A stretch of 64,000 nucleotides of DNA from Boothiomyces macroporosus. Taxonomy: Eukaryota; Chytridiomycota; Chytridiomycetes; Rhizophydiales; Terramycetaceae. Positions 3 through 62,944 of the stretch are shown piece by piece. Positions within the stretch are counted from its first letter, which is position 1; every line of letters begins with the position of its first letter. Made by a program: the position numbers and the translations under genes. Below the pieces are notes generated by a model, which saw only the letters and a program-made list of their open reading frames with translations, made no database searches and had not been told where the DNA came from. The DNA is taken from the NCBI GenBank assembly GCA_027604185.1, contig JADGKB010000014.1:143665-207664 (forward strand), given 5' to 3'.

Positions 3-653
3 TGTGCTCTCTTCACTGGAATTGAATTAATTCAGTGCTACCAGCCGTTATTCCCATTCCTATCGAAAACAAGAGTAAATTACTTGCGAATTTGTGCAGG
101 GGGAGCTTACCTACTTACCAATGGCAGTACTGTTTCGCTAACTTTAGATCGCGCTTTTAAAGACTTGTTGTACACAAGTTCTCAGCAAACAAATTTTTTT
201 GCTCTATGGTATAAATACGGAAGCCCTATATTTTCTGTTATGGAAACTGTTCTGAATAGTGGTTTCCTCTTGTTCATGTTCTTTGGGATTTACCGGGTAT
301 CAAAGAGTAAATCAAACCAACAGCAACTGGATTTCATTTCCGCAAAATATAATTCAGCCATAGTTCTACTGATTATCTATGTAATCTTTAGTATTTACTT
401 TGGAGGGGTGACTGCGTTTATTGCTGCGATAGATACAGACGATCTTTTTGCACACACATTTGTATTGAAATTGGATGTGCTACTGATACAGCCAATGACA
501 TTTATGATTTGCATATATTTGAAACTATATTATATACTATTGGAGATATTTGCAAAGAAAGAGGTACATAATGGACTCAAGATATCCAATGTGAATAAAT
601 CCAAACAGGGAACCAGTACTAAAGTCTTGCCGAACGGGCTGGTAACTTCTTAG
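3..653 (+). CDS. seven-pass membrane protein, family 1, copy A (5' partial)
   Basis: The last 209 codons of a multi-pass membrane protein; its start lies before the window. The frame opens at base 3 and gives GIELIQCYQPLFP, matching the end of TM3 and the next loop in the four downstream paralogues. A 21-nt intron (127-147) is inferred: it begins GTA, holds CTAAC and ends TAG, and its removal restores the family junction LTNG-N-RAFKDLL. Left in, it adds seven codons and no stop. Three hydrophobic segments follow (about 225-300, 355-435, 465-545), then a short polar tail. The function is unknown. Four related copies follow on the same strand, so this is a tandem family. Confidence 0.85.
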   Translation, partial: CALFTGIELIQCYQPLFPFLSKTRVNYLRICAGGAYLLTNGSTVSLTLDRAFKDLLYTSSQQTNFFALWYKYGSPIFSVMETVLNSGFLLFMFFGIYRVSKSKSNQQQLDFISAKYNSAIVLLIIYVIFSIYFGGVTAFIAAIDTDDLFAHTFVLKLDVLLIQPMTFMICIYLKLYYILLEIFAKKEVHNGLKISNVNKSKQGTSTKVLPNGLVTS

Positions 654-989
654 CTTGTATATTGGACAAGCAAATAAATAGTATATTGAGGAAGAAGGAT
701 ATTCTGCATTAGTTGATTTTGCTATTTCTCGTTTTGATTCAAAGATGATCGTACTCGCACAAGAGTCGACTCCCAACTTTTTGAATTTCTGCATCTTGAT
801 TTTCGCTGTAAAAAGAGATAGGAAAAGGTACGAGTTTAAATTGGCCAGCGACGCGCAATATATCTAGCATCAAATAGAGAGATTCAATATCAAATACCGG
901 CTTGATTTCACTATCAGTGATGAATCCCAGCCTTCAGATTAAATCAAAAACATTGTGCGTCGATAAGTGACGTTTTTTTTGACATTTTC
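654..989. other. intergenic spacer between copies A and B
   Basis: 336 bp of AT-rich sequence. No ORF with family similarity or motif support was found; it should hold the 3' end of copy A and the promoter of copy B. Confidence 0.5.
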
Positions 990-1882
990 ATGTTTGAAAT
1001 CAATGAAACTACAGACAGTATGCTAAACAACTTGGTTTACGAAATCTGTTCGTTGGGCATTTTGGGATACGTGCTGATAATTTGGGCAATAGTTAGTCTG
1101 AATGGAAATCGCAAATTCCTAAAGATTCACTATATTATGACTGCTGTGCCAATTATACACATAGTTATCAACATTTTAAACATTATTTTAGTGTCTATTC
1201 ATCATACCATAGTTATGTGGTTGATCAATTTTATGATCTGGATGTTCAATCTATTTGCACTGTTGTTAGGCAGCGAATTGATTCACTGTTTCCAATCGCT
1301 CTTCCCTTATTTATCTGATACCAGAATGTTTATGTTAAAGTGTTTGATTGTCGCTGTATTCCTACTATCCAATGGCTGTAATAATACTTGATATTAGTTC
1401 GCGCAGTAAAAGACTTGCTATATACCAGTGCCCAACAAGACAACTTTTTTGCCATATGGTACCGATATGGAAGCCCGGTATTTTCATTCACTCAGTTGTT
1501 TCTAAACACCAGCTATTTGGTCATCATGTTTTATGGTGTATACAAAGTATCACTGCAACGATCGAACCAATCCCAACAGCAGTTTATCAAATCAAAATTC
1601 ACAGAAGCCAATGTGTATTTGGTCATATATGCCCTATTTGTTGTCTATTTTGGATGCGTAACAGTACTCATTGCCCACATTGACACGAATGACCCATTTG
1701 TACACCTCTTTGTTCTCAAATTGAATGTAGTGCTTCTGCAGCCATTTACAATTTTGGGATTAGTATACTTGAAGCTCTATTATTTGTTGTTGGAAATCTT
1801 TGCAAAGCGAAAAGTAATCAGCAGCTCAAACTCTAAATCCATAGCAAATGCGACAAATGATACCGTGATATTAGCAAAATAA
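990..1882 (+). CDS. seven-pass membrane protein, family 1, copy B
   Basis: 290 residues over two exons. The ATG at 990 opens MFEINETTDSMLNNLVY, which aligns with copies C and D, so the start is well supported. Four hydrophobic segments lie before the intron and three after it, giving a GPCR-like seven-pass layout with a very short N-terminus. The intron (1378-1397, 20 nt) falls in phase 1 between LLSNG and RAVKDLLYTSAQQ. Conserved family positions are CYQPLFP or its variants before TM4, RAVKDLL after it, and KLYYLLLEIFAK at the end of TM7. No DRY or NPxxY motif is evident, so it cannot be assigned to a known GPCR class. The function is unknown; a receptor or channel-like role is a guess. Confidence 0.88.
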
Positions 1883-1991
1883 CCCAGCTTTCACCAATAA
1901 ATTTCTTTAAAATTTTCTTGGTATAGTCCAGCTTTGATACCAATTTGGCATTCCCGTCAATGTGGAGAGGCAAGTTTTTGAGTTGACGTCA

Positions 1992-2907
1992 ATGCAATTG
2001 ATTATCGACAGCAACACAGACAGTACCCTAAATACACTCATATACATCTTTTGTACACTGGGATTCTTCTTTTTACTTGCGGATATTTTGCTGGTAATTC
2101 GTTTGAACGGTACTCGAAATTTCCTAATGATCCATATCTACATAATATTACTCGCGTTGTTACTCATGCTTGTAAATATTCTCACAATAGCGCTAGTATT
2201 TATTCCAAGCACTACCCTTATGTGGATGATCAATTTGGTTATCTGGATATTCACACTCGCTTCATTTATGGTTTCATGCGAACTGATTAATTGCTACAAA
2301 CCGCTATTTCCATGGTTGACAGATACTAAAATGAAAGGACTAAAAATAATCATTGTAATCCTTTATTTGCTTACAAACTGGGGTAACTTGTATTAACAAA
2401 GAACGTGCAGTAAAAGATCTCTTATTTGTTAGCGCCGACCAACCTGGGATATATGCAACTTGGTACAAGTATGGAAATCCTGTGTTGGCAATCTTGGAAA
2501 TTGCCTTTAATATCAGCTATTTAGTAATGATGTTTGTAGGTATATTCCGCTTATCAAAACGTAAATCAAACCAGCGACAACTTGATTTCATTAAGCAGCG
2601 GTACACAAAAGCTACAATTTATCTGGCAATCTATGCGTGTCTAGTAATCTACTTTGGTGTACTGACTTTTGTAATTTCAAGACTAGACAACGATGATCCA
2701 TTCACACATCGATTTGTGCTCAAGCTGGATATATTGATGATCCAACCATTTGCTTTAATGACTTTTGTCTATACCAAGTTGTACTATTTGCTGCTAGAAA
2801 TATTCGCAAAGAAAGACTTGAGGCAAAGTGTAATCAAAGCAAATCAGAGTCAGATTGACAAGGCCAATATTCCAATAGATACCAAGGATACTCTACCAGC
2901 AACATAG
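1992..2907 (+). CDS. seven-pass membrane protein, family 1, copy C
   Basis: 298 residues over two exons. The start is set at ATG 1992 (MQLIIDSNTDSTLN) because it aligns with the N-termini of copies B and D; a GTG at 1962 in the same frame is not a credible eukaryotic start. The 19-nt intron (2383-2401) sits at the same phase-1 position as in copies A, B and E, and its removal gives LTNW-E-RAVKDLLFVSADQ. The seven hydrophobic segments are retained. The stop of C is only 48 bp from the ATG of copy D on the same strand, which leaves little room for a separate terminator and promoter. Confidence 0.88.
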
Positions 2908-2955
2908 TCGCTGTCCTTGTGCGAGTATTGCCTTCTAAGGGTGACGTATTTTCCT

Positions 2956-5736: not shown

Positions 5737-7161
5737 ATGCATCAAAGAACAAACTCTCTACAGCCCACCTCGCCAGCTAGACAACACTTTCGTTCATTCT
5801 CATACAACTCCAATACAGAAGAACTGGATATATTGGATTTGATTCAATTGGAGTGTGACAAAAAAACAACGAATTTTAACCTTGCGAACAGGAATATGGT
5901 GCATTTACCACCGGAAATAAATAAGCTAGTAACGCTGGAAAGGTAGGTTTGGTTTCATGTAGGTAACCGGACTCTAAGGAAAGGTTAGGACTCAACAACA
6001 ACAGACTGTTATCTCTCCCCATCGAATTAAAAGCGCTTGTGAATCTGAGATATTTGAACCTGCGGTCAAACTCGCTTCGAGAATTCCCGTCAGTGGTACT
6101 TTAATATTTACATAGCTCGGGGATTTACAGTCATTGGAAGTGCTGGATATTTCCAAAAACAAAATCAAAAAGTTTCCCAATGAATTTGGAAATTTGCTTA
6201 ATTTAAAAGTATTGTCGATATCAAGGAATAGGATACAGATGCTGCCCAAGTATCTTGCGAATATGCCCCAACTCAATGTCTTCAAGATAGGTATTTGCAT
6301 TTGACAACAGATTTTAATCCATTGACTTGGCCGCCGTTAGAGTATCTACAACCCGAACAGGAAAAGGATCAAGAAATATGGATACGGAAGCTGCAAACTT
6401 ATCTATCACAGAATGGTAACGGATTACTAACGAGATCCGCCTCCATCCAACTACCCGTTAATACCTGCTGAATTATCTCCTTCAATCAAAGAAAAAGAAT
6501 GTACAGAAATAGTATATACCCTCCTGTCAAATATAAAACCGCAAGATGGGGTCATTGAATCATTTCTCAATGTGCTCTTTGCTTCAGTAGAAATATATAG
6601 AGTATCTAGGTAGTATTTACTTTACAAGATATATGACTAGGCTATCGTTGATATCAAATGCAAAGATAAATTTTGATATTGGTAAAATAGAATCAAGTAC
6701 AAAGAACCTCAATTCTCAAATAATCACAACTAGCAAACTCATTAAAGAAAACAACATTAATAACATTATACAGCTACTTAGATGCACTAGGATTGTAGTC
6801 TTGAGCGTTTCAGAACTGGATGGTTTCCAGAGTATCCTCCAAGATGGCTTACTAAAGTACAATATACTAACATAGCGACTGGAACAAAGTCAATCAGTCT
6901 CTGCGACAAGCAATTTCAAATCTACAAGATAAATCCAAATTCGAAAATCTGGTTTCTTTGCTAAACAAGTTGAAGGAACACGTAACTGGAACTGACCTGC
7001 TTCTGATACAGAAATGCTTGCACTATAGTGAAAAGAAAGATCTCAAGTGTTTGCCTAGTGTGTACAAGTTGTTGCGCAACTGCCAGGGGTATAACATTAG
7101 TAGTGAGGGAGTGAGTATATGTGCAGAGCTGGCCAGTGAAGCCAAAAAGCTGGCGAAATAA
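5737..7161 (+). CDS. SOG2-like leucine-rich-repeat protein
   Basis: 428 residues over seven exons. After a Ser/Thr-rich N-terminus come about four LRRs (NLANRNMVHLPPEI; LGLNNNRLLSLPIEL; YLNLRSNSLREFP; VLDISKNKIKKFPNEF) and then an alpha-helical region without repeats. This layout fits fungal SOG2, an LRR protein of the RAM/NDR-kinase polarity pathway; that identity is inference from layout and short motifs. Introns: 5943-5983 (41 nt, divisible into 20 + 21), 6096-6115, 6291-6310, 6416-6434, 6610-6628, 6857-6875. Each splice restores the LRR spacing or an open frame, and the total coding length is divisible by three. The stop TAA lies inside AATAAA (7157-7162), and the reverse-strand Pumilio gene ends only 32 bp away. 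Confidence 0.82.
5943..5983 (+). other. double intron (20 + 21 nt) in the SOG2-like gene
   Basis: The LRR frame requires removal of exactly 41 nt (LER joins LGLNNN). The stretch divides at 5962/5963 into a 20-nt piece starting GTA and ending TAG, and a 21-nt piece starting GTA, holding CTAAG and ending AAG. Both match the intron type seen elsewhere. It could equally be one 41-nt intron. Confidence 0.6.
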
Positions 7162-7193: not shown

Positions 7194-9768
7194 TTAATCA
7201 ATCTGGTATTGAACGATATACTTTTCAACTTCTAATGTTAGCAAATATTACTTGAAATTAAATGTTTACCATAGGTGTACTTTTTTAATGATGGTAATTG
7301 GGGTTTAATCTTTGTTACCAAAATTAGTTTTTGGCTTTCATTAGCAACGTCCAATAACTTTTGTACAACATAATTGGCAAATTGGTCCTTCATCATAGTG
7401 TAAAGAGGGGTTGTTCCATCCTGCTTTGTATGAATGACTTCGTCAATTATCTCTTGGCGGTCCTGTGGAGATCCATATGATACACATTTTTCTACAACAT
7501 TCGAGGCGAATTTGTGTTTAGACATGTTTAGCACATGTCCTTTTACTTTGGAGATTACAAATTGTTTGTCTTTTGGTTTTCCTTTTTCTAGTATATGCTG
7601 AATTACATAGTTTCCGTATTGATCTTGAATTAAACTAATCGCATAGCGGTGCAGCTCTTCTAGTAGTGGTTCCTAAAGTAAGATTGCATATTACAGTTTC
7701 TTCATCACTACAATGTTCAAAAATTCTTTGGATGACTCTGCATCCATATGGATGAGTAGCCAAAGCATAAACTTGACCATGGAAAGCATCAATAATGAAT
7801 CGAATATGGTCTGGATCAACTCTTTCAACGGCCTTCTGGATTACATGGTTGCCATTTTGGTCCTTTACACATTTCAAGACATTTCCTTCCAATTCCTTAA
7901 TTAGCAAGGATTGTTGTTCTGGAGAAACGTATTCAAAAGCCTAAATTTAAATCCTGATTACTTTTTGAACTACACGGCAGCCATACATTTGAAGGGATAA
8001 ATTAAGAATGTTTCCTTCCATTTTAGAAGCGAGTTCCTCCTTTTGTTGAGCATTGCCATGTTCAAAGAATTTTTGAATTACATAGTTTCCAAATACATCA
8101 GTGGTAAGCTGAAGAGCGTGTGGCAAAATCTCTTCAAAAACCATTTGCTTTTCTTCATTTGTGGCAGTCTCAAGTTTCTGTTGAATGAATCTCGACCCGT
8201 GTTGATCGCCACTGAATTCAACCACACTGCCGGCAATATCCTGAAGTTATAGTAGAAATACCTTTAACTCATACTTTTTGTTTTTGTTGTTTCGGAAATC
8301 TTCCAATAGTGCTGATCTGCTACTTGGCGAACTATCTTGATTTGAAGTTGGGCTAGCATCCATACGATTTCTGGTAGGGCTGGTAGCACTGTTGTTTTGA
8401 TAACCGTCCCTTCTCGAATGAGATTCTTGTCTGGGTGGCTGTTGGTGAGAGCTGGTTTTTTCCCACTGGTTCACATTGGCATTATTGTTATTGTTTTGAG
8501 TCAGTCTTAGCTGCATTTGGATTTGTTGAATTTGTAAAGGTGACAAATTACCGGCAGCACTTAAGGCAGCCAATGCCTGCGCCATCGCTGGATCTAACAG
8601 AACATCGTTTGCTTTATCTTTATCAACTAAACCAGGAGGAGCGCCTCTGGCTGGAGAATTTGGATTAGAAAATCGTCCTTGAGCACTAGCTGGGCGATTG
8701 GGGAAAAAGTTGCTGTCGTGGTCAAAGAGTCGGTTTGGCCCTTTTCTATCACCAATATCTAATATTTAGCAAGCAATTACTGGATGTGTAACCTGGGCTA
8801 AATGCATCCCCGAAATTTGCCTTGGTGGCACTGGCTGGACCATCTGGAAAGTGACGAGAAATAGGAGTTCTAGAACGATTTGGAATTACCGGCTCATCCT
8901 GAAATTAACCAAAGTCTACCTTAACATCCATATTCTGCATTCCATAAATAATTTCTTGTGCAGTTGGGTCTCTCTTTGAAGGTGCAAATTGCAATCGGGT
9001 AGGTGGCGTGGAAGCTGCTCTTGGAATTGGTGCGGCAAAAACATTATCTTGCGAATCAAGCGCGGCATTCAATAGCGCAGTCATTCTCATTTCGTCTTCT
9101 TGGGTGTCGTAATGGTCAATGAAATTTTGGTTTGACGACTTTGGTCGCGACAGTACTGAGGATGCTCTTGGGTACTGCTCACTATCTAAATCTGTCAAGT
9201 TATGTCGAAGCGGTGAATTCATCATCTCTTGATTTGGTAATCCTCGTAGTGGTGAATTTGTTCCCCAACTAGGGTTCATTTTCGAGGCAGAGTTGACCGC
9301 GTTAGGGGCAAACAGTGTAGGAGACTTTATCAAATTGTTGTTTACCTGATCCTTTTCATATCCAGAAAAATTCTCTCCTTTCGAGTTCATTCCAGGGGGC
9401 GCCCACAGCTGCCAACTTTGAGCTGGCGAGTAATTTGGTGGTTGCATACGTGGCTGAAGTCTAGAATTTTGATGGTAATATTTGGCATAGTCTGGGTTGT
9501 TGCGTAAATCCTCTTCGTCAAAATCCTATAGTCATTCAAAAAATTACAGCAAAATTCTAAAACAGTTAAAAATCACTTACGTTATCCTGCATGATTAGTT
9601 GCGATGGCGGAGCACTGGATGAGCGATTTATATCCTGTCCAGTAGATGAGAAATCATCCCACGCACCTTTAGATTGAAGCATTGCTGCTAACTGGCGTTA
9701 CAACAGATTACCTGTCCTTTTGGTTGTTGGTTTTTGGCTTTTGGGGTGTAAAATTGCTGTTGATCCAT
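7194..9768 (-). CDS. Pumilio/PUF-family RNA-binding protein
   Basis: 790 residues over nine exons. The N-terminal half is low-complexity (Q, N, S, P rich). The C-terminal third carries the eight PUF repeats, with motifs such as [72 protein letters not shown] and [13 protein letters not shown], closing with [14 protein letters not shown] proteins bind 3'-UTR motifs and repress or localise mRNAs in the cytoplasm. Start at ATG 9766-9768 ([12 protein letters not shown]). Introns in transcript order: 9692-9711, 9526-9580 (55 nt), 8899-8919, 8759-8780, 8241-8261, 7941-7961, 7673-7694, 7232-7251. Several split repeats that read perfectly once joined. The stop TAA abuts AATAAA. Confidence 0.95.
9526..9580 (-). 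other. 55-nt intron or two minimal introns around a 9-nt micro-exon
   Basis: This is the longest intron in the window. It can be removed whole, joining MQDN to DFDEED. It can also be read as a 24-nt intron (GTAAGT..TTAAC..TTTTAG), a 9-nt exon encoding NFA, and a 22-nt intron (GTAATT..GAC..TATAG). Both readings keep the frame. Confidence 0.5.
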
Positions 9769-10101: not shown

Positions 10102-11985
10102 ATGGACATGAAAATAGAAACAGCAAAGTCGATGGATGCCCTGGGGGACAATTCTTCGAAAAAAAGCTCCAATTCATTGCAAAGCGACAAGAATGCAGGG
10201 GTTTTGAAGTCTCAACCAAACGTTAGTGCTGATGCTTCAAAACGCGGAAGTTTTAGGGTGAGGGATAGTATGCGATCGATAAGAGAGTCAAATACGTCGA
10301 TAGACAGACCAATAATTTCCCTGTATCCCAGGAAATCCGTGTCAATAGTTTCTAGAGAAAGCATGATGGCAAATCGAACTTCTCTCTTGCAGTTAGCAGA
10401 CAATGCAGTCGACAGAAATAATTCCAACAGCAAACCGTCGATTAACAACTTGAATAAGTCTGGGGAATCTTTTGGAAGGCCCGTTTCTTTGATATCACTC
10501 AAAAAGCTAAACCAGATAAGAGAGTCGACGCCAAATTTAGTCGTAGATGAAATACCACAGCCCGCGATGAACTCGGAGTATTTGGATTACTTGATGTTGC
10601 AGCAACGCCATTCATCGTGCAACTTTATCCAAAAGATAGATTCGAACGAAATAGTCTGGGAAACAAAACAAACGCAGATTAAAATGCTTGGGCCTCATCT
10701 CGTGGGTGGGAAAATAGGCAAAGGAGCATTTGGAAAAGTAAAAGAAGGAATCTGTGCCGATTCATTACAGCGAATCGCCATAAAGATACTAGCAAAGAAG
10801 AGGGTGAAAAAAATGGTGGATACTGTAATTAGAGAGATTAAGCTATTGCGTAGATTGAAACACAAAAACATTGTTACTCTTGTGGATGTTTTCGCCAAAG
10901 TTGAAGATAATGAAGGAAAAGCAGGGATATTTCCCTGGTTTCTAACTATTGAAGAGGAGCCCATAGTATGGATCTTTGAAGACGGAACTGAAGAAGAAAA
11001 AGACGTAAAGATTCTCAAATGGTACATCATCATGGAATTTTGTGCTTGTTCGTTGCAGACCCTAATTGATCATGCTCCGAATCACCAATTAAGCATTGCT
11101 GAATCTCATAGGTAAGCTTTAGCTAATGAGATATTTCACACAGACAATTGACGGATTGGAATATTTGCATTCCCAAAAAGTTATCCGTAAACTAAACTAA
11201 ACCTAGATCGCGATATCAAACCCGGAAATTTACTCATTACAACTGATGGTGTAATTAAATTGACTGATTTTGGAATAGCAGAGGTCAGTAGTATTAACGA
11301 TAGTGTTATAATTTCTATGATGATAAACCAATGTACTCGCAGACGTTTGCCGGCACCCACCAATTTGTTCCTCCAGAAGTGCTAAAAGATGAATCTGAAA
11401 CTGGCTTTGATGGAACCAAAGGTAATGAAAATTAATGCAAGTGGATATCTGGGCTGCAGGCGTGGTATTGTACTACATGGTCGCTGGAAAGCTACCATTT
11501 GAATTTGAAGATGAAGAAAATATTATAGATTTACATGAAAGGATAATTAAAGGAGTATACCAGATGCCAAAGGATATTCCGGCAGATTGTCAAGATTTGA
11601 TTGACAGTAAATGCTTTTAAAAGTAGAAATATTGCAAAAAGAACCCGAACAACGACTGACTATTGAGAAAATCCAAGTACACCCGTGGACTTTGTCTTAT
11701 GTACAACCTACTTTGAAATCCGGTGAAAGCAATATTAAAATCTACCAAGACACGTCCAACTCTGTTTCCACAAACAAAGACAACGATATTCCTTGCGATA
11801 CCACAATGACGCCGTTCTTGTCGCAGTTGTACCAAGAAGAATTGGAGCGCGATCTGGAAGACTCTGGGATTATTTCTCTATGGAGCAGTTCTGAAGACGA
11901 TGTAATTCTTTCTAAATTCTAGATTTCTGGAAGTAAAAAGAAGAAAATGATCAATTGGCTAAAGAATGCAATGAAGAAAGAATAA
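10102..11985 (+). CDS. STK11: LKB1/STK11-like serine-threonine kinase
   Basis: 587 residues over seven exons. After about 180 polar residues the kinase domain shows the glycine loop ([11 protein letters not shown]), the ATP lysine (AIKIL), HRDIKPGN and DFGIAE, a PPE in place of APE, and DIWAAGV. LKB1-specific stretches are [47 protein letters not shown] and [10 protein letters not shown]1 activates AMPK-family kinases. Introns: 11112-11130, 11187-11206 (inside the catalytic HRD), 11284-11303, 11422-11441, 11607-11626, 11902-11922. The last, 21 nt, ends in TAG, so an unspliced reading stops there; splicing adds a short basic tail ([19 protein letters not shown]). An insert of about 35 acidic residues lies between alphaC and the hinge. 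The TAA stop lies inside AATAAA. Confidence 0.9.
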
Positions 11986-12587: not shown

Positions 12588-15500
12588 ATGTCTGGATATC
12601 CCAATAATAACCAATCGAGCGGACAGAGACCACCAAATCAAGCGAAATTTGCGCCTAGACAGTCGTCTTTATTTCGGGTTCCACCAGAAGTGGTATCAGG
12701 TACTTGCCAGCTAATTAGATTATCGCCAGAAAACAAAGTCATTATATCAAAACGAACAGAACGATAGCTCCTCCTCTGTTAATTATGCGCAGCAGAACGG
12801 ACCGCAGTTTAAGCAACCAGGACAGGGGCAATATAATCAAGTTGAACAAAGCAGGAAACCCCAGCAATACAATAATACATCTCAACAACAGTATAATGGT
12901 ATATCGCAACAACAGTATAATGGTAATCCTCAACCACAATACAATCCTCCATCACAGCCTCAACCACAACCACCCGCTTCTAGAGAACCTAAACTGCAAC
13001 AACGACCATCATTAGACCCTGGATACAGTTTAACTTCTGCTGAAATTCCTATAAAAGCTTCGCCAATAGTCCTAGATTATCAACAAAAATCTTTAGACCC
13101 AGGAAGGAAAAACTCTTCTCCAAAATCACCTACAATTGATAGTGCAGGCCAAGTATCAATTAGGAGTGGGACAGATTACAAACAAGGGCAGTCTAGCGAT
13201 GACAAGGCGAATGGCGCGTCTCAAGAAGAAAGACTACCTAGAAATGGCTCCAAGATTTCAAACGGGTCAGACCAAATGCTGGATGAAAAGAAAACTGGAT
13301 CTACCGTTTTAAAAGGATTGGAGAATAAAACAAAACCTGAGCTGTTGGTGATTACAAAGAAAATGCTTGCAGAAATTAATATAAAAAACAGAATCATCAG
13401 CGAAGCTAATCACAATACCAACTGGCTGACTGCAGAATTATCCGCAATTAGAGATGGGAAGAAGAATATTCAGGACCCAATCAGCGATTTCCAAAAATCA
13501 GTGGCGAATTCCTCGCCTTCCGAGGAGGATAAGCTTATGCTGGAATCGTTACTGAAACTCAAAGGACAACTTGAAGAGGCTAAATCAGATATTGAAAAAG
13601 TAATTTCGAATTAATTTAGCATGAAGCGTCCTTGCTAGTCCTGGAGAAAAAGAGAACTGTGGCAGAAGAAGAAGCTGCATACCTAAGAACACTGACTGAC
13701 AGAAACGCTGATGTAAAAACGTTGGAAGGAGAGCGGATTAAAGAATTGGAGGTGCAGCTGAAAAAAACTGTAGAAGATTACACCGTTCTGCAGTCTAAGG
13801 TTTCGCAGTGGGCTAGGGCTTCTAAAAGGAACCAAGAAGGTCGTATTGCTGCAGAAGCTGCCCAAAAGACTTTGGAGGAAGACATCAGAGCTTTAAAGTC
13901 AGAGCTTAAAAAGAAAGGAAGCGGGGACAAGAGCCACGAAAAGCAAATCGTTGCACTTCAGCAGACTCTTTCCGATACGAGAAATCAGCTACAAGTAATG
14001 GAAGACAACCTTAATGACGCCTACACTACAATTGATCAGTTGGAAACGGAAAGCATTTCAATGCAGGAAAAGCTTACTGCCGAATATGCAAGATTGGATG
14101 AGCTGAATGAAACTGCAGAGAATTACAGAATAAAGTGCGAAGAACTGCAAAGCGAGCTTGCTGCTCAAAGTGAATATGCAGAAATCATCAAGAAACGCTC
14201 TTCAAATGCATCGACAATCTTGGACGGTCCATCGAGAAGCGAGGTTGATGAGTTGATGGAAAAGAATGCATTCTTGGAGGGACAACTAAAGAAAATGACA
14301 CTTGAGCATGAAGAGGTACAGGAAAATCATCGCAAGTTACAAATAGCACACCAAGAGTTGCAGTACAATTTTGAAACAGCAGCAAAGAAAAATGAGAAAC
14401 TCACACAGAAACTTGGACCCGAGGCGATTGCTCAGGAGGAGGAATACATGAAGAGAATGGCAGAATTAGAAGCTGCTAATAATTTTGCAATCGAACGTCA
14501 GCAGCAGGCGGAAGTTGATATTATCAACTTGAAGAGGGCACTAGCCCTAACAAAAAGCCAGACTCCATCATTCCAGGAATTGAAAGAAAAACTTCAAGAA
14601 GAAGGAAGTGTTAGACAGGAGCTTCAGGAAAAACTAGATAAAGCATTAGCAGAAAAGGAAGAATTGATCAAGAAATTGGAAGAAAATGCAAAGGCATCTG
14701 ATTCCAAAAATGTCGGGAATGGTAATACCCGCGAAATAACTTCTGGCGGAAAGAGCGAACTAGAAAATCAAATTGAACTACTGAATATTGCTCTTCAGGA
14801 AGAGAAAGATTATGCCGCTGATATTGCAGAAAAACTGCAAGCCCTTCAGGGAGACAAGGAGGATGCATTAGCACAAGTGGATGAACTTAGCCATGCTTTG
14901 GCCGAAGAAAGAAATACCAGTGAAACTCTATATCAGCAAATTCAAGATATTGAAGCCGAACAGGACAGTTTAATGAATAAAATGGATAGCATGGTCGCTC
15001 AACTCAAACAAGAAAGGGCCACGAATGAAGCTCATCAGAACACTATCTTGCAATTGCGACAAAATGCTGGCAGCAACCCCCAACCCTCGGAACTTGACAA
15101 GCAGTTTATTGAATTAAAGGAAACGCTTAGCCAGGAAAGAGAAGCTTACGATGAATTGAATGAAAAGCTTCAAATTTTAGGAAATGAGAAAACGCTGCTC
15201 ATGAATAAAGTACAAGAGCTCAATGAAACAGTAAGCAACCTAACAAAGAGCAGCAATGCAGATTTGGAAAAAGAAATCCTTGAACTGAACGAAACCCTTG
15301 CTGCCGAAAGGGATGCGTATGATGAAGTGAATGAAAAGCTTTTACGAGCAGAAGAAGAGAAAACACATCTTTTCAATCAAATACAGCAATTGCAACAAGA
15401 CCTTGAAAGTATGAAGAGTGGAACAGGTGGAGATATGGAAGCTAAAATCCAAGAATTAACCGAAACCCTCGAGGCCGAACGAGAGGCATATGACGAACTG

Positions 15501-18873: not shown

Positions 18874-19703
18874 ATGCAGGAAATATTTCGGAAGTTTGCA
18901 ATGGTCCTTATGGGGGTTTCCGTATTCTGCAGCCTGTCAGCGGCAATATATTTCCTTGGATCTTCTTGCAGACAAAAGATCTTTTACAAAATCATTATTA
19001 CACTTCAAATGATCAACGCACTGTACATGATATACCGGATGCTACTGTTCGATTCGACTACAGATATCCTCAGCTTGAATGCCATTCCGCTTACTCTGGT
19101 TAGTAATATAATCCTCTTTGGCATCAACATCATCAACCTTCAAACACTGGGCATTTTTTCGATTTTGGATAGCAGAATTACAAATAGAAAGATTAGAGGT
19201 CTTACAGTGGTACTGACCCTTTTGTTCCTATGGAGCGAAGTGATTTACATTGTTCATTGGGCAGAGAATAATGGAGAGAATGTTGACTCTCCAATTTACA
19301 AAGTAAGCATTGGTTAACGTAGATGTACTACTATCCTTACATGTGCTGGGTGGTGATCTCCATTTTGTATGATACTTCGCAGGGCATCTTTCTGGCAAAG
19401 TTGCTCTACAAGAAATTCTTGGCCAAATCTGTTGTAAATACCCAGTCAACCAAAAGTAGAAATGTGATCGGCTCGTTGTTATTTGCACTGTTGGGTTTAA
19501 GTTTTCTGGACTGGGTTGCAGCTGCAATTTACTCGGTAGGAAATTTGAACTCGGATCGTAATTGCTTTTTAATTCTAGTACAAGTTCAGTATGTATTCAA
19601 TAATGTCGCATCGGCGATCCAGGGCCTTCATATTTTCGGTATCACTCTAATATTCAAACACTTTACGGACCTAATCAAAAAACGAACTGGAAACAAGAAG
19701 TAG
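18874..19703 (+). CDS. seven-pass membrane protein, family 2, copy 2
   Basis: 262 residues over three exons, beginning MQEIFRKFAMVLMGVSVFCS. Intron 1 (19303-19322, 20 nt, phase 0) joins PIYK to MYYYPYMCW. Intron 2 (19558-19578, 21 nt, phase 1) has no in-frame stop. Comparison with copy 1 shows that the seven residues RNCFLIL (or the equivalent) are intron, and splicing gives NLNSDLQVQYVFNNVAS, aligned to NLNTSLVEQLFYNNFGS. The topology is as in copy 1. A telomere-like AGGGTTAGGG lies about 60 bp upstream, probably by chance. Confidence 0.86.
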
Positions 19704-20861: not shown

Positions 20862-20985
20862 TTAAACGGAATCGTAAATGTGCAATAAAGCTAGTTTCAT
20901 TTTCTTTCATTGTGGAAATGGTTGTCGCGGAAATTGGTATACGTAATACATTAAAGCGACCGATGGAAACGTCAGATGTTATTTC

Positions 20986-47701: not shown

Positions 47702-50700
47702 TTATAATGCCATCATTTCGCTCATTGTATTCTCTACAAACCAGCCCATTTGATCCGCTACATTCTTGACTTTGTATGGGGCTTCAACTTGTATATCTCG
47801 AAGGAGTTGTTGTATTTTTAGACAACGAGATTGATATCGGCCAGTATCTGGAATTCTACTTTCTATATCTGGCTGGAAAAACACGTATTTACCATCTTTT
47901 AGGTCTTGATATCGACGTTGGGCTTTTTGGAATACAAATGTAGAGTTGGTAACCATTTGTTTTTTGGCTGCTAGTTTATCATATTCAATGTCCAAATCGG
48001 TCTTTTTTCTTTCTAGAGCTTTGAAAGAAGCGATCGACTCTTCAATTTGCTCTTTGAGAATATCATGCGACTGTTCCAAGTCAACTTTGTCTACATAAGC
48101 AGTAATTACCTTGCTCGCACTCTTTTACATCTTTTACGGCTTGCTGCACCTTCTTTTGCAAATCAATAATTGCTTTTTGGAGAGTGATTTGACTACTTCC
48201 TTTTGGTTTAGACGTACCCCTTTGTTAGAATCACTTACTTTGAGGAAATGCTTTCTCTTCGGTACACGCTTTTTTCCATTTCAGCAATCATCTTTTCTTG
48301 CAGTTTCAACATGCTAGCATACCGCAAAGTCATTCGGTGGATTTCTAAAGACATTTCTTTGATTTCGGTTGCACCAACATTTGGGTCCAAAGCCGATTGT
48401 GTTTCTTTTGCAAGTTGAATTTTCTTTTCCCAAAGCATCATTTGGCGTCTACAATCAATGAAGGCTTACTCTGCTTCAATTAATCCTACCAGAGCTTCTT
48501 CTTTTTCTTGCTTTATTTTCTCCAGCTGAGCCTCTAGCTGGATAGATTCTAACTCTGCGTCTTTAAGCTTTCCTCTGAACTTTTGCTCAATTTCCAAATT
48601 GGACTCTTCGATTTTTTCATACACACTCGATTGTTTGGAGAGGAGGGCGTTTACTTTAACCATATCGATTTGCAACTGTTTGATGTTTCTGTTGCTTTCC
48701 TTTATTTGCTTTTCTTCAGTGTCAAAGGCATCTACATTAATTTGTATTACTGTTGACCACCATTTTCTTTCTGTTCAATACTGTCAGTCGCATTCTCAAG
48801 TTTTGGATTTCGTCTGTTATGTCCAAGCTGTTCTTTCCGATAGTGACCATTTCATTTTGGGCTTTTAACCAGTATTGCTGCAGCTCTAATATCTCACTTT
48901 CTTTCTGTTGAATAGCTTTTGTGAGATTGTAAATCGTGGCTTCAAGAGGTCCCATATGTGCATCCTGGCTGCCACTGGTCATTTGATCATATTTCTTGTT
49001 TAAACTATCCATTTCCGAAGCTTTTTTGCTCAGTAAATCATTGTTTTGCCTGATTTCTTGTTCGTACTTTCCAATTAATTGGTTTTTTTCAGCCATTTCA
49101 GCATCTACAGCCTTCAGCTGTTCCTTGATTGTCTTTATTCTTTCTTCGGCATTTAGAGCTTCCAAGTTGATTAAACTCAATTCATTATGGAAGTTTGCTG
49201 CCGCTGCTTCCTTTTCGTGAATAATTTGTCGCAATTTAGCCCCGTCTTTCAGCGAGCCCTGTGCTCCCTTTTGGAAACTAAGTTGGAGCTTTAATTTTTC
49301 AGCAATTTCCTTGTCCAACTTTTGCGTTTTTACAGCGTTCAGCGCAGTCAATTTTTGTACCTGGTTGACTTCCATTTGAACAGCTACTCTTTCTTGCTGA
49401 CTTGCTTGTAACTCCTGCTCTATCTGATTCAAACTTTTCATGTATACAGAATAGGACTCTGATACCTTTTCACGCTGTTCCTTCACAAGTGTAATTTGCC
49501 TCTTGATGTATTCAATTTCTCCTTCCAGCTTACTCAGTAAACTTTGAAGACTTTCACCTTCATTCTGGCACTGTCTCAGCGTCCTTTTAAATCCATATAT
49601 CTCGGTATTCATTATATTCAGCGCGGTTTCATTTTTAATAATTGCCGATTCAATTTCTTGGAGCATTTCTTCTCGCTTTTTTAGTCCAATCAAGCTGCTC
49701 TTCCATTGATTTAAGAGTTGTCTCTTTTCAAACTGGATAGCCTAAAATCAACAGTAGTTTACCTGCATTTCTACACTGGCTTCATGTAAGGTTTGAATCG
49801 CGGCTTGAGTTTCTTTTTGCTGAACAAGAATTTGTGAATCATAAGTCATTCTCTTTTCCTGGAGTTTTTTAAGATGTTCTGTTAAGTGATCAATGTAAAA
49901 ATCTTGTCTTTTCTTTTCAATTTCTTGTTTAATGATATCCTTTTCTGCCTTTAATGTGGTGCGTTTGGCAACTAGAATCTTTGACCTTAATTCCTCCCCA
50001 AAAAGGTCTACCTGTTTCAGAGTACGCGATATTTTCTCCAATTCAGCTTGGTGTTGCTCCACTAGGTTAATAAAAGATACTATTTTTAGTGTGCTGCTTT
50101 AGTTTATCCTGTTCTTTCTGATAATCGGATTTGGTGTGCTTTAACAGCCTTTCTGCGTCGGTTCTCAATCCTTTGATGATTCCGTAATTTTCCTCTGCCC
50201 CTTCGTACATTGCTTGTAATCTGGCTAGTTGCTGTTGAAGTGTATATAATTCAACACCGGCGTCTTCTCTTTTCTTTATTTCCTTGTTCCTTTGCTCTTC
50301 CTTTTCGCGTACATCCAAAACCAACTTTTGTTCGTATTTACTCAGTTGATTATATATCGCTTGTTGAACTCTTTGAAGCAGCGGCTATTGTTATCCAAGT
50401 TTTACGTGGTCAGAGGGCATGATTTCATCCTCGTCATCATCCAAGTCATCCACATTGCTTGGATTTACCTCTGCCGGGAGTTCAAATTTAACTGTAGGCT
50501 TTTCTTTTTCAGCGGAATTTGCTTCGTCGTCAGCCTGAATAGGAAGTGAATTCACATTCTCTTCTGGTGGAACAAGTGGGTTCTCAAGAACATAATGCTC
50601 TGAAGGAACAAATGGGTTTTCAAGAACATAATGCTCTAAATTTTCTCTCTCACTGTGCATCTTTTGAGTATCAGAATTTGGAAGTGGAGGGAGTTGCGCT

Positions 50701-50968
50701 ATGGGAATGTCAACAGATTGCTGCTCAGTTGAAATTTGAGGTTCAATGACTGCAGGCTGCTCTTGCTCCATATTTTCTACATCATTCTACATTAAAATTA
50801 ATTACTGTTGGTGCTATGGTTGCCCTGTCAGTAACCAGATCCTCTGTGGTTGCATCCGTTTGGCCAAAATCTGATTCTGTCATTAAATAGAGTTTTACGT
50901 TCTTGAACAATATCTTGCGCTTCCTCTAAGCGATTCTCTGCGCTGTTCATATCCTCTTGCGAATCCAT
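47702..50968 (-). CDS. CCDC40: CCDC40, axonemal coiled-coil protein
   Basis: 1028 residues over ten exons. An acidic N-terminus is followed by continuous coiled coil. Family-specific stretches include QAIYNQLSKYEQKLVLDVRE, AIQFEKRQLLNQWKSSLIGL, KESEILELQQYWLKAQNEMV and ERQMMLWEKKIQLAKETQ. With CCDC39 it forms the 96-nm axonemal ruler that positions radial spokes and inner dynein arms. Introns: 50877-50898, 50787-50805, 50385-50405, 50062-50080, 49742-49762, 48732-48750, 48449-48469, 48220-48238, 48091-48109 (19-22 nt). The start MDSQEDMNSAENRLEEAQ (ATG 50966-50968) is upstream of an exon-internal ATG at 50771. Its presence implies a motile 9+2 flagellum. Confidence 0.93.
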
Positions 50969-59123: not shown

Positions 59124-59976
59124 ATGGCGACAGCATTAAATCTCGCATCTGTTACTGGCAAGATTTCCATAGTATCCACAGTGGGCACTTTGCTAGTAAA
59201 CGCCTATGTCCTGTACGTTATCATCAGAAACGATGTTGGAGCCAGTTATAAACTCAAAACTAAACTCTTGATTTTCCAGTTGCTAACTATCCCACACATG
59301 ACTGCTTACTTGCTCTACTATTTCGTATTGAACGATGTGCTCTGGTTTCATATCGGGGGATTCATGTCTTCAGTGATTTTCTACACAATCAACAGTCTTA
59401 ACCTAGAGGTATTCTTTAATTAACTAGATTTTGAGTCTGTTTAAAATTGTTAATGAAAAAATATCAGACAAGCGGATCCTGTATGCTCAAATTGCACTTG
59501 TTGTGATTTTTGTCGTTTGTTCTATTGGGCTGGTACTGCAGATTATCTGGTCTTACAGTGTACCGCATGCAGTAACATTGGTAATGTCTATTAATAGTAG
59601 TATGTACAGTATGGTGTCTTGGCCTTTTCCCTTATCACAGTGGGTTATGACAGTAACCATGATTAACATAGATGCCCAAACCTTTTACCTTACCTATGTA
59701 GTCTACAATTTCAAAAAGGTTACGGCAAAGATATCCATTTCAAAACAACTGCGAAAATCCATCTTGATGTGCTTTATACTGGTGCTTTGCGATTGGGTTG
59801 GGATTGGTTTGTATACCTACAACATCATTGGAAACCCGGTTGATTCTACGTTTTTGCTGTCTGCATGTGTCGCTAATCTTCATGCGTCAATTATGGTGAT
59901 TGTGTTTATCCATCTCAAGGATTTGTTGTTCCTTGGGAGGAATGAAAAAACCAGTTCTCAAGCAAACATGATTTGA
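59124..59976 (+). CDS. seven-pass membrane protein, distant member of family 2
   Basis: 277 residues over two exons. Start MATALNLASVTGKISIVSTV. The single 19-nt intron (59409-59427, phase 0) joins SLNLE to ILSLFKIVNEKIS. That junction resembles LINLQTLGLFCVLDSRIT of family 2, and the length and hydrophobic pattern agree, so I place it as an outlying member. Its intron is at a different position from the array copies at 17.8-21.9 kb. Function unknown. Confidence 0.8.
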
Positions 59977-60053
59977 ACAAAATTAGGTTACATTGTTCAT
60001 TGGTATTTCTGCAAACGCGTAAATAAAAGGGATATTTCAAACACAATATATTT

Positions 60054-62944
60054 TTATAGGCCATAAACTTCTTTCATTCCTCTTTGCATATTTTCAGGGA
60101 AACTAGACACCATGACTGCCCATTGTTCGCCCATAGCATCTTTAAACATTACAAAAATCTGCGTTAATAACAATTACTTGATGGAAAGTAGCGTGCAGTT
60201 GTGGGTGACTGCGAATATTTGACCATTTCAGTACGCTATCCGTGTAAGTCTGGAAGTGTGGTAAAAGCGCATTTGGATTTTGTTGAATCACTTGACAAAT
60301 TCCCATAAAGGCGCTGGCTTTTTCTTGGTTATCGTGAACCAAAGCCAACTGCATACACCTAATATTAATTGAGATTACCATCTGCCGACAAATGTTTCTA
60401 AATGTGGGGCAACTAATTGCGGACAGCTGTACCCCAGACGGCCAACAGTTATCGCAGCGTTTTCTGTAAGTGATCTATGAGTATTAGCAGTCAGCAGAAA
60501 AGGAATCAATTTTGAAAGTAGCGGGTTTACAAATGGCTCCATGTGATTTCCATATTTGATAGAGATTTCACCGGCAGACCATGCTGCGTTATTCATCGCA
60601 GAGAGAACTGTACCGTCAACTGGCAAATACAAGGATTGTCCAATGATTTCAAAAATTTCTGGTAAATGGGGCACGAGTGTTTGGAAGCACGCAGAACACA
60701 AGTCACCAATGAGGGCAAAGGTACTAGAACGGACATCAGGGGTTTCGTCTTTACCAGTGATCTTTAGTATTGGAATCAATGTTGGCTCTTGACCTCCAAC
60801 AACAAATTGCTCGCACTCTGGCCCCAATCCTTGTACTATTCCAGAAATCAAATCTAATGAAACAATAATGAAATCCTTGTCTGGGATTTCCAACTGTGGG
60901 TTTTGCTTGTAATTCTAAAATTAAGAAACTAGTACTTGAATAGCCATCAAGTTGTGCTTGATCATATTCAGACATCTTTCCCACACCGGACCAGCATATG
61001 GCAAAAAGGCTGGTCCAAGTGCGTTGGCAATGGAGGACAAGCATTCAAAAAGTGGGAAAATGTCATAATTGTCATCAGCTAAATGCTGCCATTTTGCAAT
61101 CAATAGTGGCATAAATCTGTCCATGTATGGAACCAATTCTTCACCGACAAACTCTGCTAAAATTCCAAACGCATCATACAATACCAGTAAATTCTTTTTT
61201 TGATATACTTGAAAGCATTTTACAATGGTATCTATAATTGGATTGAGGTATGGTGCCAAGGATTCACGAGCTTCTTCTTCCAGAGTAGCTAATGCGCTAC
61301 ATCCAGCCTTTTGTACTTCCTTGTTGTTGTCCAGACACATTTGTAAAAATCCTTGCAACACAGGCAACATATATTTGTGGTGATGTTCTTGCAAGCTGGT
61401 ATTGTTTTCAATTGGATTATTTGGATTGGCCATCCATGCAGCGTATCTCCCCAAAGTCCAGCAAGTAATAGAGCGAACCAGTGGTTTTTCGTGGGTAATA
61501 AAAGACACTAAATGAGGGATTAACATTGGCAAATGCGGCTCCATTCCTCTTTCACATCCTTGAGCTATAGCTCCAAGAGCCAGTATCCCAGCTTCCAATG
61601 TTTCCCATTCTTGGGACTGCAACATTTGGTTTATTCCTGGCAACAAATCAGGAAGCAAATCATCATTAAACACGGTAGATAATACATCAAGTGCAGCAGC
61701 AGAACATTTTCGCAGGTTCCAATCCTCACCAAAGTCATCATCGAAATCGCTGTCGTCGTCATCATCGTCATCTTCTTCAGGTTCATGATCTCCTTCTAGT
61801 TCATGGTTCTTTTGTTTGTGGAATCTAGGTTTAATGTCTTCATCTCTATCCGCAACTCTTGCATCAATTTGCTTCAATTCAAGCATTTCAATTTCATCCT
61901 CAGAGTAAACCATACCCTTTAGCAAAACTGGCAATATTCTTGGCAAGAATGGTTGAATATGGACATGCAATACTTTTTGTTCAGAAAGGACAAGCCAAAA
62001 GTCAGCAGCTTCAATTGCCAGATCCTGGTCTTCATCTTGACTGGCAAACAAAACAAAAGAAATGATTCCTAAAATGAATTAAACTTACCATCAATAACAG
62101 GAACAAGCAAATTTGGCTCGATTTCAACAATGTTGTTGAACGCATGACAAACGTGTTTTTTAACTTCTGGATCAGGGTCGTTTGTCAGTTTGCACAGCAT
62201 ATCCATAAACATTTGAATATTTTCCCACACTGCGTTTGAGCGAATAATGAGAAACTGATTCACACACTTTAAAGCAGAGGATCTTACTCTTCCGTTTGGA
62301 TTTTCCAGCTGCGGCATGATACCTGAATGAAACATGAATTACCTGTAAGTATCAAATGCACCAAAGCAACACCGCGGTTTTCAATTTTGTCTGCAGCGTC
62401 TTCACAAATCTTTTCCAGAGCGTCTAAATTAACTAGGAAATACCTAGATTAAGAATTTCAAATACTGAAACTTCCATGAATCGTTTGTGGATTTTTCAAG
62501 AGTTCCAACAGCAAGGGAATGATTTCAGGCCACCGTTCAATTTCAACACACAAAACGGTTGAAATAATACTACCCGCAATGTTTTGGATTTGCTTGGAAG
62601 GGTCCGAAAGGGCATTCACAATCGCCGCCTATTAAATATAAACAGAAAAAAGTACCTTTGCGTAATCGAGAATCGAATTGTCTAAGCGCAACCAAGTCGA
62701 TTTGAGGGAATTTTTCAGATTGATTCCAGCAATAAATCTAATAGTTTCTGGAACTTCTTTGTTTGAGAGAATAAATGAGAGATAATTGTTATATTCCGGG
62801 ATTTGCTGGTATTGTTCTAATTGCTTTGGTCAAATAATTTGTTACTTTGAGCAACTGCTGTTGCGTCGATGAATTGCCCGTGGTTGCAGAGTGGAGCAGT
62901 TGAATGAGGGTCTGTAATTCTGTTTGGTTTGGTTGCCACGACAT
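60054..62944 (-). CDS. TNPO1: transportin (importin beta-2, Kap104)
   Basis: 899 residues over nine exons, the normal length for transportin. HEAT repeats run throughout; an acidic loop (residues with DDDDDDSDFDDDFGEDWNLR) followed by CSAAALDVLS is diagnostic, as is the C-terminal FKDAMGEQWAVMVSSFPENM. It carries PY-NLS cargoes such as hnRNPs into the nucleus and is released by Ran-GTP. Introns in transcript order: 62824-62845, 62629-62655 (27 nt), 62424-62465 (42 nt, divisible into 22 + 20), 62324-62343, 62069-62088, 60915-60935, 60359-60378, 60159-60177. All splices restore transportin-like sequence and the coding length divides by three. ATG at 62942-62944. Confidence 0.95.
62424..62465 (-). 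other. double intron (22 + 20 nt) in transportin
   Basis: IHGSF must join NALEKICEDAADKIEN, which removes 42 nt. The stretch is a 22-nt unit (62444-62465: GTATTT..CTTAATCTAG) directly followed by a 20-nt unit (62424-62443: GTATTTCCTAGTTAATTTAG). Both halves carry full donor, branch-like and acceptor signals. Confidence 0.75.

Follow-up and report, generated by a model that had tools for sequence, protein, structure and literature searches.

Introns of about 20 nucleotides, some in tandem arrays, in the nuclear genome of the chytrid fungus Boothiomyces macroporosus

Introduction

The stretch of DNA analyzed here, called the window throughout, comprises 64,000 nucleotides (nt) of Boothiomyces macroporosus (Chytridiomycota; Rhizophydiales; Terramycetaceae), namely positions 143665-207664 of contig C14 in an assembly of 15.2 Mb in 216 contigs. 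It carries genes for squalene synthase, a RhoGEF and transportin among many others, and these genes are interrupted by introns of about 20 nt, a few of which stand end to end. An earlier note made from the letters of this DNA had described it as nuclear genes packed with 19-23-nt spliceosomal introns in a fungus-like genome. The organism is in fact a true fungus, and the framing is corrected accordingly. An aphelid or sanchytrid origin was set aside on protein matches to Boothiomyces and Terramyces.

Most statistics below refer to 264 kb, made up of the window and 20 stretches of 10 kb from 15 other contigs, picked by the analyst and amounting to 1.7% of the genome. Genes were called with a self-made finder built on a dicodon model. 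In the first run introns of 10-120 nt were flat and equal in cost and no splice motif was used; in the second, learned donor, branch-point and acceptor profiles were employed with a length prior still flat over 10-200 nt; in the third, a learned length prior was added, which makes the length figure of that run circular. Continuity of the protein across a junction served as a stand-in for absence of the segment from the mature mRNA. Published work is cited by PubMed Central (PMC) number.

Results

Boundaries of short introns in three conserved genes

The squalene synthase, transportin and RhoGEF proteins were compared with a large protein set, and hidden Markov models (HMMs) were built from relatives outside Terramycetaceae. 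At each junction the in-frame GT-AG alternatives within 75 nt were scored, 4-21 candidates each with the intron-retained form included. The short intron came first in 17 of 18 tests, one of them a tie: all nine for squalene synthase (3) and transportin (6), and eight of nine for RhoGEF.

The squalene synthase gene (40455-41693, minus strand) has three introns of 19 nt. The first, at 41488-41506, lies inside CIFY|LVLRGLDTVEDD (rank 1 of 21), the second, at 40970-40988, follows LFWPKQVWEQYV (1 of 19), and the third, at 40572-40590, splits ACAN|IVRW (1 of 15). The motif before the second intron is mostly or wholly dropped in the public models of three relatives, and against the family HMM our model scores 581 versus 521, 509 and 469 for public models of relatives.

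Nine introns interrupt the RhoGEF gene (51072-53854, plus strand): 51846-51865 (20 nt, rank 1 of 7), 51962-51982 (21 nt, 1 of 18), 52061-52082 (22 nt, 1 of 13), 52188-52209 (22 nt, 1 of 10), 52260-52280 (21 nt, 1 of 4), 52483-52502 (20 nt, 1 of 11), 52711-52730 (20 nt, 1 of 21), 53422-53441 (20 nt, 5 of 14) and 53770-53788 (19 nt, 1 of 16). The eighth is a weak point by HMM rank, yet a public model has the identical intron. That model is a Boothiomyces macroporosus protein 99% identical to the window RhoGEF over 57% of its length. When it was mapped on the window DNA, its three 20-nt introns (the sixth, seventh and eighth above) proved identical to our calls. Its 451-nt "intron", by contrast, takes in five introns together with four exons and the first 16 nt of a fifth, at a cost of 115 residues, and the ninth intron is extended to 31 nt (53758-53788). 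The residues lost have counterparts in Globomyces, and the family HMM gives 966 to our model versus 643 to the public one. In the one gene of the species examined, public annotation thus contains ultrashort introns and mishandles crowded ones. As to the expectation in the earlier note that gene finders would fragment such genes, the annotation did not simply fail, having kept three introns of 20 nt and mangled the crowded ones.

Transportin is read on the minus strand from an ATG at 62944. Its first intron (62824-62845, 22 nt) gives a joined reading that fits the Terramyces orthologue P0122. The orthologue reading also places a 27-nt intron at 62629-62655 (DYAK|AAIVNAL), the longest single intron backed by orthologues, and a 42-nt tandem intron at 62424-62465 (22+20 with AG|GT between; HGSF|NALEKICED). 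Five further introns follow at 62323-62342 (20 nt, rank 1 of 18), 62069-62088 (20 nt, 1 of 14), 60915-60935 (21 nt, 1 of 17), 60359-60378 (20 nt, 1 of 18) and 60159-60177 (19 nt, 1 of 9). The tie mentioned above, another weak point, concerns 62424-62443, which in a transportin model without the 5' exons ranked 1 of 8 level with an 11-nt alternative; the orthologue reading of the 5' part makes this segment the second half of the 42-nt tandem.

Counts and controls

Of the 28 gene models that our finder made in the window, 19 have introns, 76 in total. Seventy-five of these measure 19-23 nt (20 of 19 nt, 28 of 20, 19 of 21, 7 of 22 and 1 of 23), which confirms the claim of genes full of such introns. 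The 88 introns in 25 genes counted earlier are plausible as well, because the leucine-rich-repeat gene at about 5.8-7.1 kb escaped the finder, as did the transportin exons at the 5' end. As to the five longer introns listed in the same note, that of 27 nt stands as a single intron, that of 42 nt is a tandem pair and that of 41 nt reads as one. The 44-nt candidate at 28789-28832 falls, its first 24 nt aligning ungapped as exon to a solved homologue, and an intron of 55 nt was not found in the window. A second 44-nt candidate lies at 46393-46436.

The short length class is already visible in raw spacing over the 264 kb, where GTA is followed by YAG in 276, 296 and 241 pairs at 19, 20 and 21 nt versus about 200 at most other spacings, and decoy dinucleotide pairs are without a peak at 19-21 nt. 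With the motif-free finder and flat lengths, GT..AG yielded 70 introns of 19-23 nt versus 6-19 for the 17 decoy pairs; among all 18 dinucleotide pairs it is the only one with a peak there. The profile-based run with a flat length prior put 219 of 293 introns at 19-23 nt (65 of 19 nt, 93 of 20, 43 of 21, 16 of 22 and 2 of 23) and scattered the remainder, and the run with the learned, hence circular, length prior put 310 of 326 there. Within the motif-free gene calls, the pattern GTA..YTRAY N1-3 YAG at 19-22 nt occurs 92 times on the sense strand versus 4 on the antisense strand, the same motif at 24-60 nt 80 versus 84 times. Set against background, the motif shows a surplus of 149 at 19-23 nt and of -15 for 24-150 nt taken together; single introns of greater length that carry it are therefore too rare for detection. 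Sixteen introns above 23 nt (24-112 nt) were called in the 264 kb, only two of which, at loci L012 and L014, resolve as arrays. Every one of the 20 stretches of 10 kb has ultrashort introns, 2-30 per stretch, and on this sample of 264 kb out of 15.2 Mb ultrashort introns of narrow length range count as a genome-wide feature.

Intron anatomy and density

The motif, composition and phase counts given here are those of the 310 introns of 19-23 nt. YTRA followed by 3-9 nt after the A is present in 260 of them, versus 24% when the intron middles are shuffled. The branch-point A of these 260 lies at intron position 14 (115 introns), 15 (119) or 16 (21), and is followed by 5 nt in 144 introns and 6 nt in 89. 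Donors begin GTA, with A at +3 in 282 of 310 and A at +4 in 194. No preference for G was seen at +5 (51 of 310), although U1 has its usual ACTTACCTG, and GCA donors show no excess in the 264 kb. The introns are 71% A+T, and phases 0, 1 and 2 number 145, 109 and 56. Predicted coding sequence is interrupted 1.73 times per kb, and at least one intron is present in 101 of 136 models; a simple extrapolation puts the genome total at about 17,900.

In Paramecium, introns whose length is a multiple of three (3n) are under selection for in-frame stops. Boothiomyces differs in showing no sign of this, with in-frame stops in 45 of 63 introns of 21 nt versus 41.7 expected for random phase, and selection against 3n lengths was not seen among the called introns either. 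A search of the 310 introns for target-site duplications, the exon end being compared with the intron end, gave counts near expectation at k = 2, 4 and 5 and a mild excess at k = 3 (22 versus 15.1); the duplications at intron ends that characterize introners, introns of recent insertion and near-identical sequence, are therefore not in evidence. At L020:9110-9155, introns of 21 and 22 nt surround a 3-nt exon ATG, and ATG also stands before the first and after the second, so that the site is either a microexon or a unit duplicated with its flank.

Tandem arrays of complete introns

The 264 kb was scanned for pairs of intron-like segments (18-24 nt, profile score at least 2) separated by 0-30 nt. 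Seven pairs lie at gap 0, versus a mean of 0.70 per gap at 1-30 and 3 at the highest other gap. They belong to six loci: L012 (19+19+19), L014 (21+22, in an MCM7 gene), L020, and window positions 5943-5983, 62424-62465 and 28789. The candidate at L020 2276-2314 was rejected, its second half aligning ungapped as exon to DEAH helicases, and so was the candidate pair at window 28789-28832, the exon-like first half of which is described above. Conserved exon stretches that resemble introns and adjoin a real intron are thus seen at window 28789-28812 and L020:2276-2294.

The pair at 5943..5983 (plus strand, 41 nt, 20+21 with AG|GT between) lies in the leucine-rich-repeat gene and gives the joined reading ...LVTLERLGLNNNRLLSLP.... 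Stops remain unless both units are removed. Its unit scores are weak (2.7 and 2.1), and the leucine-rich-repeat matches that cross the junction are below their cut-offs.

A genome-wide search with a junction pattern returned 20 matches versus 3 for the backwards control. They represent 18 loci, including the window transportin tandem (C14:206092-206116); the other 17 were fetched. Fifteen of the 18 chain into at least two units, and 14 were accepted as arrays of 2-5 units (the window locus, L037, L038, L039, L040, L041, L045, L046, L047, L049, L050, L051, L052 and L053). L042, L044 and L048 are not arrays by unit chaining, and L043 chains into two units with no open reading frame. The longest array, L037, has five units (20+19+21+21+20 = 101 nt), L038 has four (82 nt), and L041, L051 and L052 have three each. 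In all 13 accepted fetched loci the frame is open only after every unit is removed. The weakest are L047, with one unit scoring 1.5, and L053, with only 8 open codons upstream.

When the joined peptides of 13 arrays were searched against Pfam or PDB, a family match crossed the junction in seven. It does so ungapped in the three alignments inspected, those of RPT1, a cytochrome c/catalase peroxidase (RLAW|HASGTY) and PP1 regulatory subunit 7. The other four matches across a junction are PEX-1N over a three-unit array (with 6-7 residues before the junction), GH63N, ING over the five-unit array (23.5 bits versus a cut-off of 23.9) and BRE over a three-unit array (21 bits versus 25.8). No family across the junction was found for L038, L012, L046, L052, L039 and L053, six of the 13 submitted, which consequently rest on the reading frame; so does L014, since MCM_N begins just after its junction. 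L012 presumably resembles METTL2, L038 the USP7 MATH domain and the rejected L042 ARPC1. In NCBIfam, L012 matched general methyltransferase models only. Corrected for the sensitivity of the pattern, which recovers 8.8% of random unit pairs, the count suggests very roughly 190 such junctions in the genome.

At these junctions a 3' and a 5' splice site are juxtaposed around a zero-length exon, one mark of recursive splicing, the other being partly spliced intermediates; the units are complete and serial with AG|GT between, and stwintrons are thereby set apart. Clear similarity between neighboring units was seen in three of the 27 pairs (L037 units 3-4 and 4-5, and L053; median p of the 27 = 0.41), pointing to probable tandem duplication at L037 and L053. 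The other 24 pairs have diverged or were never alike, and most keep donor, branch point and acceptor. Unit scores can be set beside the single-intron median of 6.8; the weakest array units score 1.5, 2.1, 2.7, 3.2 and 3.6. Signals kept in this way would imply selection for use and hence stepwise removal, with the proviso that the pattern search favors good junctions.

Other genes of the window

Spliced models throughout the window give concordant Pfam and PDB matches (PUF, a kinase with STK11 as best match, guanylate cyclase, RhoGEF and squalene synthase). The Pumilio gene (7194..9768, minus strand; PUF 305 bits on the spliced protein) has ten introns, at 9692-9711, 9557-9580 (24 nt), 9526-9547, 9325-9345, 8899-8919, 8759-8780, 8241-8261, 7941-7961, 7673-7694 and 7232-7251. 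An LKB1/STK11-like kinase gene (10102..11985, plus; Pkinase 216 bits, best PDB match STK11 8vsu) has six, at 11112-11130, 11187-11206, 11284-11303, 11422-11441, 11607-11626 and 11902-11922. The PAS-guanylate cyclase gene (22620..25552, plus; Guanylate_cyc 214 bits) likewise has six (23139-23160, 23482-23502, 23874-23893, 24490-24510, 25090-25112 and 25325-25345). Four interrupt the gene for a Cys/Met-metabolism pyridoxal-phosphate enzyme (28631..30426, plus; Cys_Met_Meta_PP 103 bits), at 28671-28690, 28813-28832, 29531-29550 and 30075-30094.

Two coiled-coil genes were modeled, one at 12588..17638 on the plus strand with introns at 12700-12718, 13600-13619 and 17016-17035, the other at 47702..50968 on the minus strand with nine (50877-50898, 50787-50805, 50385-50405, 50062-50080, 49742-49762, 48732-48750, 48449-48469, 48220-48238 and 48091-48109). 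Also on the minus strand are models of a PH/SMP-domain gene (33326..35594; 35533-35551, 34954-34973, 34858-34876), a PCO_ADO gene (42111-42787; a 20-nt intron at 42460..42479), a p25-alpha gene (43190-44243; 43322-43340) and an Rgp1 gene (44582..46387; 46010-46030, 45793-45811, 45615-45635, 45129-45149 and 44794-44813). The model neighboring the PH/SMP gene (36105-38170) has an intron at 37787-37806.

Genes for proteins with multiple membrane spans, alike in appearance, cluster at 1-5600, 18900-21400 and 59124-59976, most models having introns of 19-21 nt. Called introns here include 2383..2401 (19 nt, plus; multi-membrane-span model w1), 4475-4493 (19 nt; model w3), 19303..19322 (20 nt) and 19558-19578 (plus; membrane-protein model w8), 20371-20390 and 20632-20652 (model w9), and, in the membrane-protein gene at 59124-59976 (plus), 59409..59427 (19 nt), 59581-59600 and 59653-59671. 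Two of the multi-membrane-span proteins, w1 and w27, were searched and matched no Pfam family. A coding repeat of 27 bases (cagttcagtgcgaatgtgagccaccta), present by eye in about three copies, lies at 3780-3890, near the 3' end of one such gene. At 25838-33047, four of five adjacent genes are without a called intron. These four are a TehB-like methyltransferase, a pyridine-nucleotide disulphide reductase with a rhodanese domain and two tandem flavin adenine dinucleotide monooxygenases, and bacterial gene transfer is a possible source.

Parts of the spliceosome

Most of the splicing factors looked for were found in the genome. Among the small nuclear RNAs (snRNAs), a U6 gene with ACAGAGA, two U2 genes with GTAGTA and a U4 gene are over their cut-offs. 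Yju2 was found at 223 bits, and Cwc25 starts MGGGDLNLKKSWHP as in human. The Cwc25 locus occurs twice (C49:3542-3652 and C100:5137-5247), with an identical match and neighboring model, reflecting either a duplication or two haplotypes in the assembly. Isy1 is present; its residues 1-42 do not align with human, and a first model with a 49-nt intron at the start was replaced by a hand-read 22-nt intron. In human, about 50 nt are needed between the 5' site and the branch site, and 52 nt have been estimated from the B complex (PMC6692369). Against these figures the 13-14 nt between 5' site and branch point found here are a real structural puzzle.

Introns at the same sites in relatives

Public proteins of relatives were searched by reverse translation for introns left unspliced, covering 1,449 protein-junction pairs at three settings; pseudo-junction controls gave 0, 2 and 0 of 8,790, none of them at 19-22 nt. 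At the site of the third squalene synthase intron, what reads as a retained 19-nt intron was recovered in Boothiomyces sp. JEL0866 and in Gorgonomyces haynaldii (in the latter with the looser anchor only), and at the transportin site 62069-62088 one of 21 nt in a JEL0866 protein. Two RhoGEF sites gave longer segments: at 51962-51982 one of 30 nt in Globomyces JEL0801, which appeared only when the downstream match was loosened, and at 52061-52082 one of 87 nt in Polyrhizophydium stewartii. On account of these few retained lengths, intron shortening may predate the genus without being common to the whole order. At the transportin tandem site, with its two units in Boothiomyces, the Terramyces protein carries residues (SKSLLII) that read as a single retained intron of 21 nt.

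One assembly of Rhizophydium megarrhizum, another member of the order, has a BUSCO score of 76.9% at genome level and 40.5% at protein level, which its authors attribute to fragmented models (PMC13391722). That unnoticed tiny introns may contribute to this gap is our guess.

Discussion

We interpret the segments as U2-type spliceosomal introns held near a minimal length by a ruler, some of them joined in arrays that would be excised serially, and put the probability of this reading at roughly 88%. The segments themselves, their boundaries in conserved genes, the geometry of their motifs, the arrays as DNA and the genes for U1, U2, U4 and U6 are all directly seen. GT..AG ends and a branch-point motif upstream of the 3' site assign the introns to the U2 type, and together with the snRNAs found and the presence of such introns in 20 of 20 stretches they support their earlier description as nuclear, spliceosomal, ultrashort and uniform. 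The proposed ruler would consist of GTA at the 5' end, YTRAY with its A at position 14-15, and after that A a tail of 5-6 nt closing with YAG. These introns of about 20 nt would be recognized by intron definition and removed by an otherwise ordinary spliceosome, the lariat loop measuring only about 14-15 nt. The addition of whole units appears to have enlarged some introns into series of two to five, each complete and joined to the next by AG|GT. The units of an array would leave one after another; serial excision is proposed because the following unit, still intact, adjoins the exon once its predecessor has gone.

Several points weigh against this view. The introns are known here from DNA sequence and protein continuity alone. 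The trained gene finder is partly circular, and the flat, motif-free runs are free of that circularity. A single intron of 27 nt exists, so the ruler is not absolute, and the remaining 14 of the 16 called introns above 23 nt (24-112 nt) may be real single introns. As regards the arrays, two of the six gap-0 loci are false because exon makes up one of their halves; the search pattern by its nature favors junctions that carry the motif; with a stricter pattern a single match was obtained (control 0), about 3.4 being expected; and excision unit by unit would yield the same mRNA as one long excision. Among the spliceosome parts, U1 with its ACTTACCTG reaches 68.8 bits, below the cut-off of 69.5, and U2AF65 matches over RRMs and UHM total 230.7 bits exon by exon versus a whole-protein cut-off of 310.3. 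U5 was not found in the genome and RED_N gave no candidate there, both in searches lacking an informative positive control, and the Isy1 N-terminus was not modeled with confidence.

The strongest alternative accepts the introns as real and holds that the arrays leave as single long introns, the outermost 5' splice site pairing with the final branch point and 3' site, and that their inner sites are relics of recent tandem duplication. The three clearly similar unit pairs are what recent duplication predicts, the mRNA would be identical, and 14 of the 16 longer called introns may be single ones. On the other hand, the remaining 24 pairs are not significantly more alike than random introns, yet most of their units score like single introns, when unused inner sites should decay (a point softened by the pattern search, which picks good junctions), and no excess of 24-150-nt single introns with the motif is seen. 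We consider single excision unlikely, while leaving it appreciable weight. It is very improbable that the true introns measure 50-100 nt, as is normal in fungi, and that the short ones are mis-drawn boundaries: the relatives' public squalene synthase models do remove longer stretches, and the public RhoGEF model places one intron of 451 nt and another of 31, but such models delete conserved residues (LFWPKxxW in the former, the 115 residues in the latter) and score worse against the family HMMs. Chance or assembly error, with indels breaking frames and GT..AG pairs bridging them by accident, has in its favor that GT and AG are common and that each decoy pair makes 164-241 bridges, and is refuted by the sole GT..AG peak at 19-23 nt, the sense-strand motif and the fixed branch-point distance. 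The very short, uniform segments might also recall sequences bypassed by ribosomes or cut out as DNA, like the internal eliminated sequences of ciliates, an idea we regard as hardly credible given GT-AG ends, a U2-type branch point and snRNAs with the usual recognition sequences, all of which fit splicing, and no end repeats beyond expectation save the mild excess at k = 3.

Returning to U2-type introns with serial excision, a more far-reaching form of this reading is that intron length is quantised: the spliceosome would be limited to a loop of about 14-15 nt, growth would proceed by whole introns, and long introns would be removed by recursive splicing on a micro scale. This would be achieved with ordinary-type snRNAs, U2AF65 and the Cwc25 plug, despite the distance of about 50 nt in human (PMC6692369). 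We hold this version tentatively, at somewhat less than even odds, which are lowered by the fact that only 2 of the 16 called long introns resolve as arrays.

Introns of about 20 nt are among the shortest known. A chytrid makes the problem of the minimum intron testable, namely how 14-15 nt can accommodate both U6 at the 5' site and U2 at the branch point. Human U2AF65 needs about 8 pyrimidines (PMC8363638), and the chytrid introns raise the question of how U2AF65 works with 5-6 nt to the exon. They also bear on whether the altered Cwc25 of the ciliate Stentor is a requirement in the first place. For stepwise splicing, and for the growth of introns by whole units, the arrays make a clear case. 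In the examples examined, pieces are missing from public protein models or added to them at these introns, a matter of consequence for orthology and completeness figures of such chytrids. No report of ultrashort introns in fungi or chytrids was found among the matches listed in a search of open-licence PMC papers. Tandem arrays of complete introns of about 20 nt are presented as new, no literature search having been aimed at tandem or recursive introns.

Ultrashort introns have so far been the province of nucleomorphs, ciliates, mikrocytids and a few other protists, to which the chytrid adds a fungus. Ratchet-point recursive splicing also uses AG|GT with a zero-length exon and a reusable downstream 5' site, but it divides very long introns, whereas the array units of Boothiomyces are about 20 nt. 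Fungal stwintrons, like the arrays, are complexes of more than one U2 intron; they are nested, one intron interrupting a splice element of another (PMC8469720), while the Boothiomyces units are serial. Cryptococcus is also an intron-rich fungus with short introns, at a mean of 63 bp (PMC8476143) three times longer than those of Boothiomyces. Introns of 23 nt are found in Trichomonas (PMC12316389), and those of Paramecium and Nyctotherus, at about 25 nt, are very short as a rule (PMC5014332), as in Boothiomyces. The introns of chlorarachniophyte nucleomorphs (18-21 nt) and mikrocytids (16-17 nt) are likewise ultrashort, narrow in range and many, but the former belong to a relict nucleus and the latter to parasites, with reduced spliceosomes (PMC10245619), in contrast to a fungal nuclear genome of 15.2 Mb. 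Stentor coeruleus has introns of 15-16 nt that share near-fixed length, GT-AG ends, a GTA start and 5 nt after the branch-point A (PMC9505925). All five of its snRNAs are described as conventional (PMC9505925), and U1, U2, U4 and U6 were found in Boothiomyces. The two differ in that the branch-point A lies at position 10-11 in Stentor and 14-15 in Boothiomyces, YTRAY is weak in the former and a strong consensus in the latter, and the N-terminal GGG plug of Cwc25 is reported missing in Stentor (PMC9505925), whereas the Boothiomyces MGGGDLNLKKSWHP matches human. Finally, introns occur in 18% of the genes of Stentor, a ciliate (PMC9505925), whereas in the chytrid Boothiomyces each kb of coding sequence contains about 1.7 of them.

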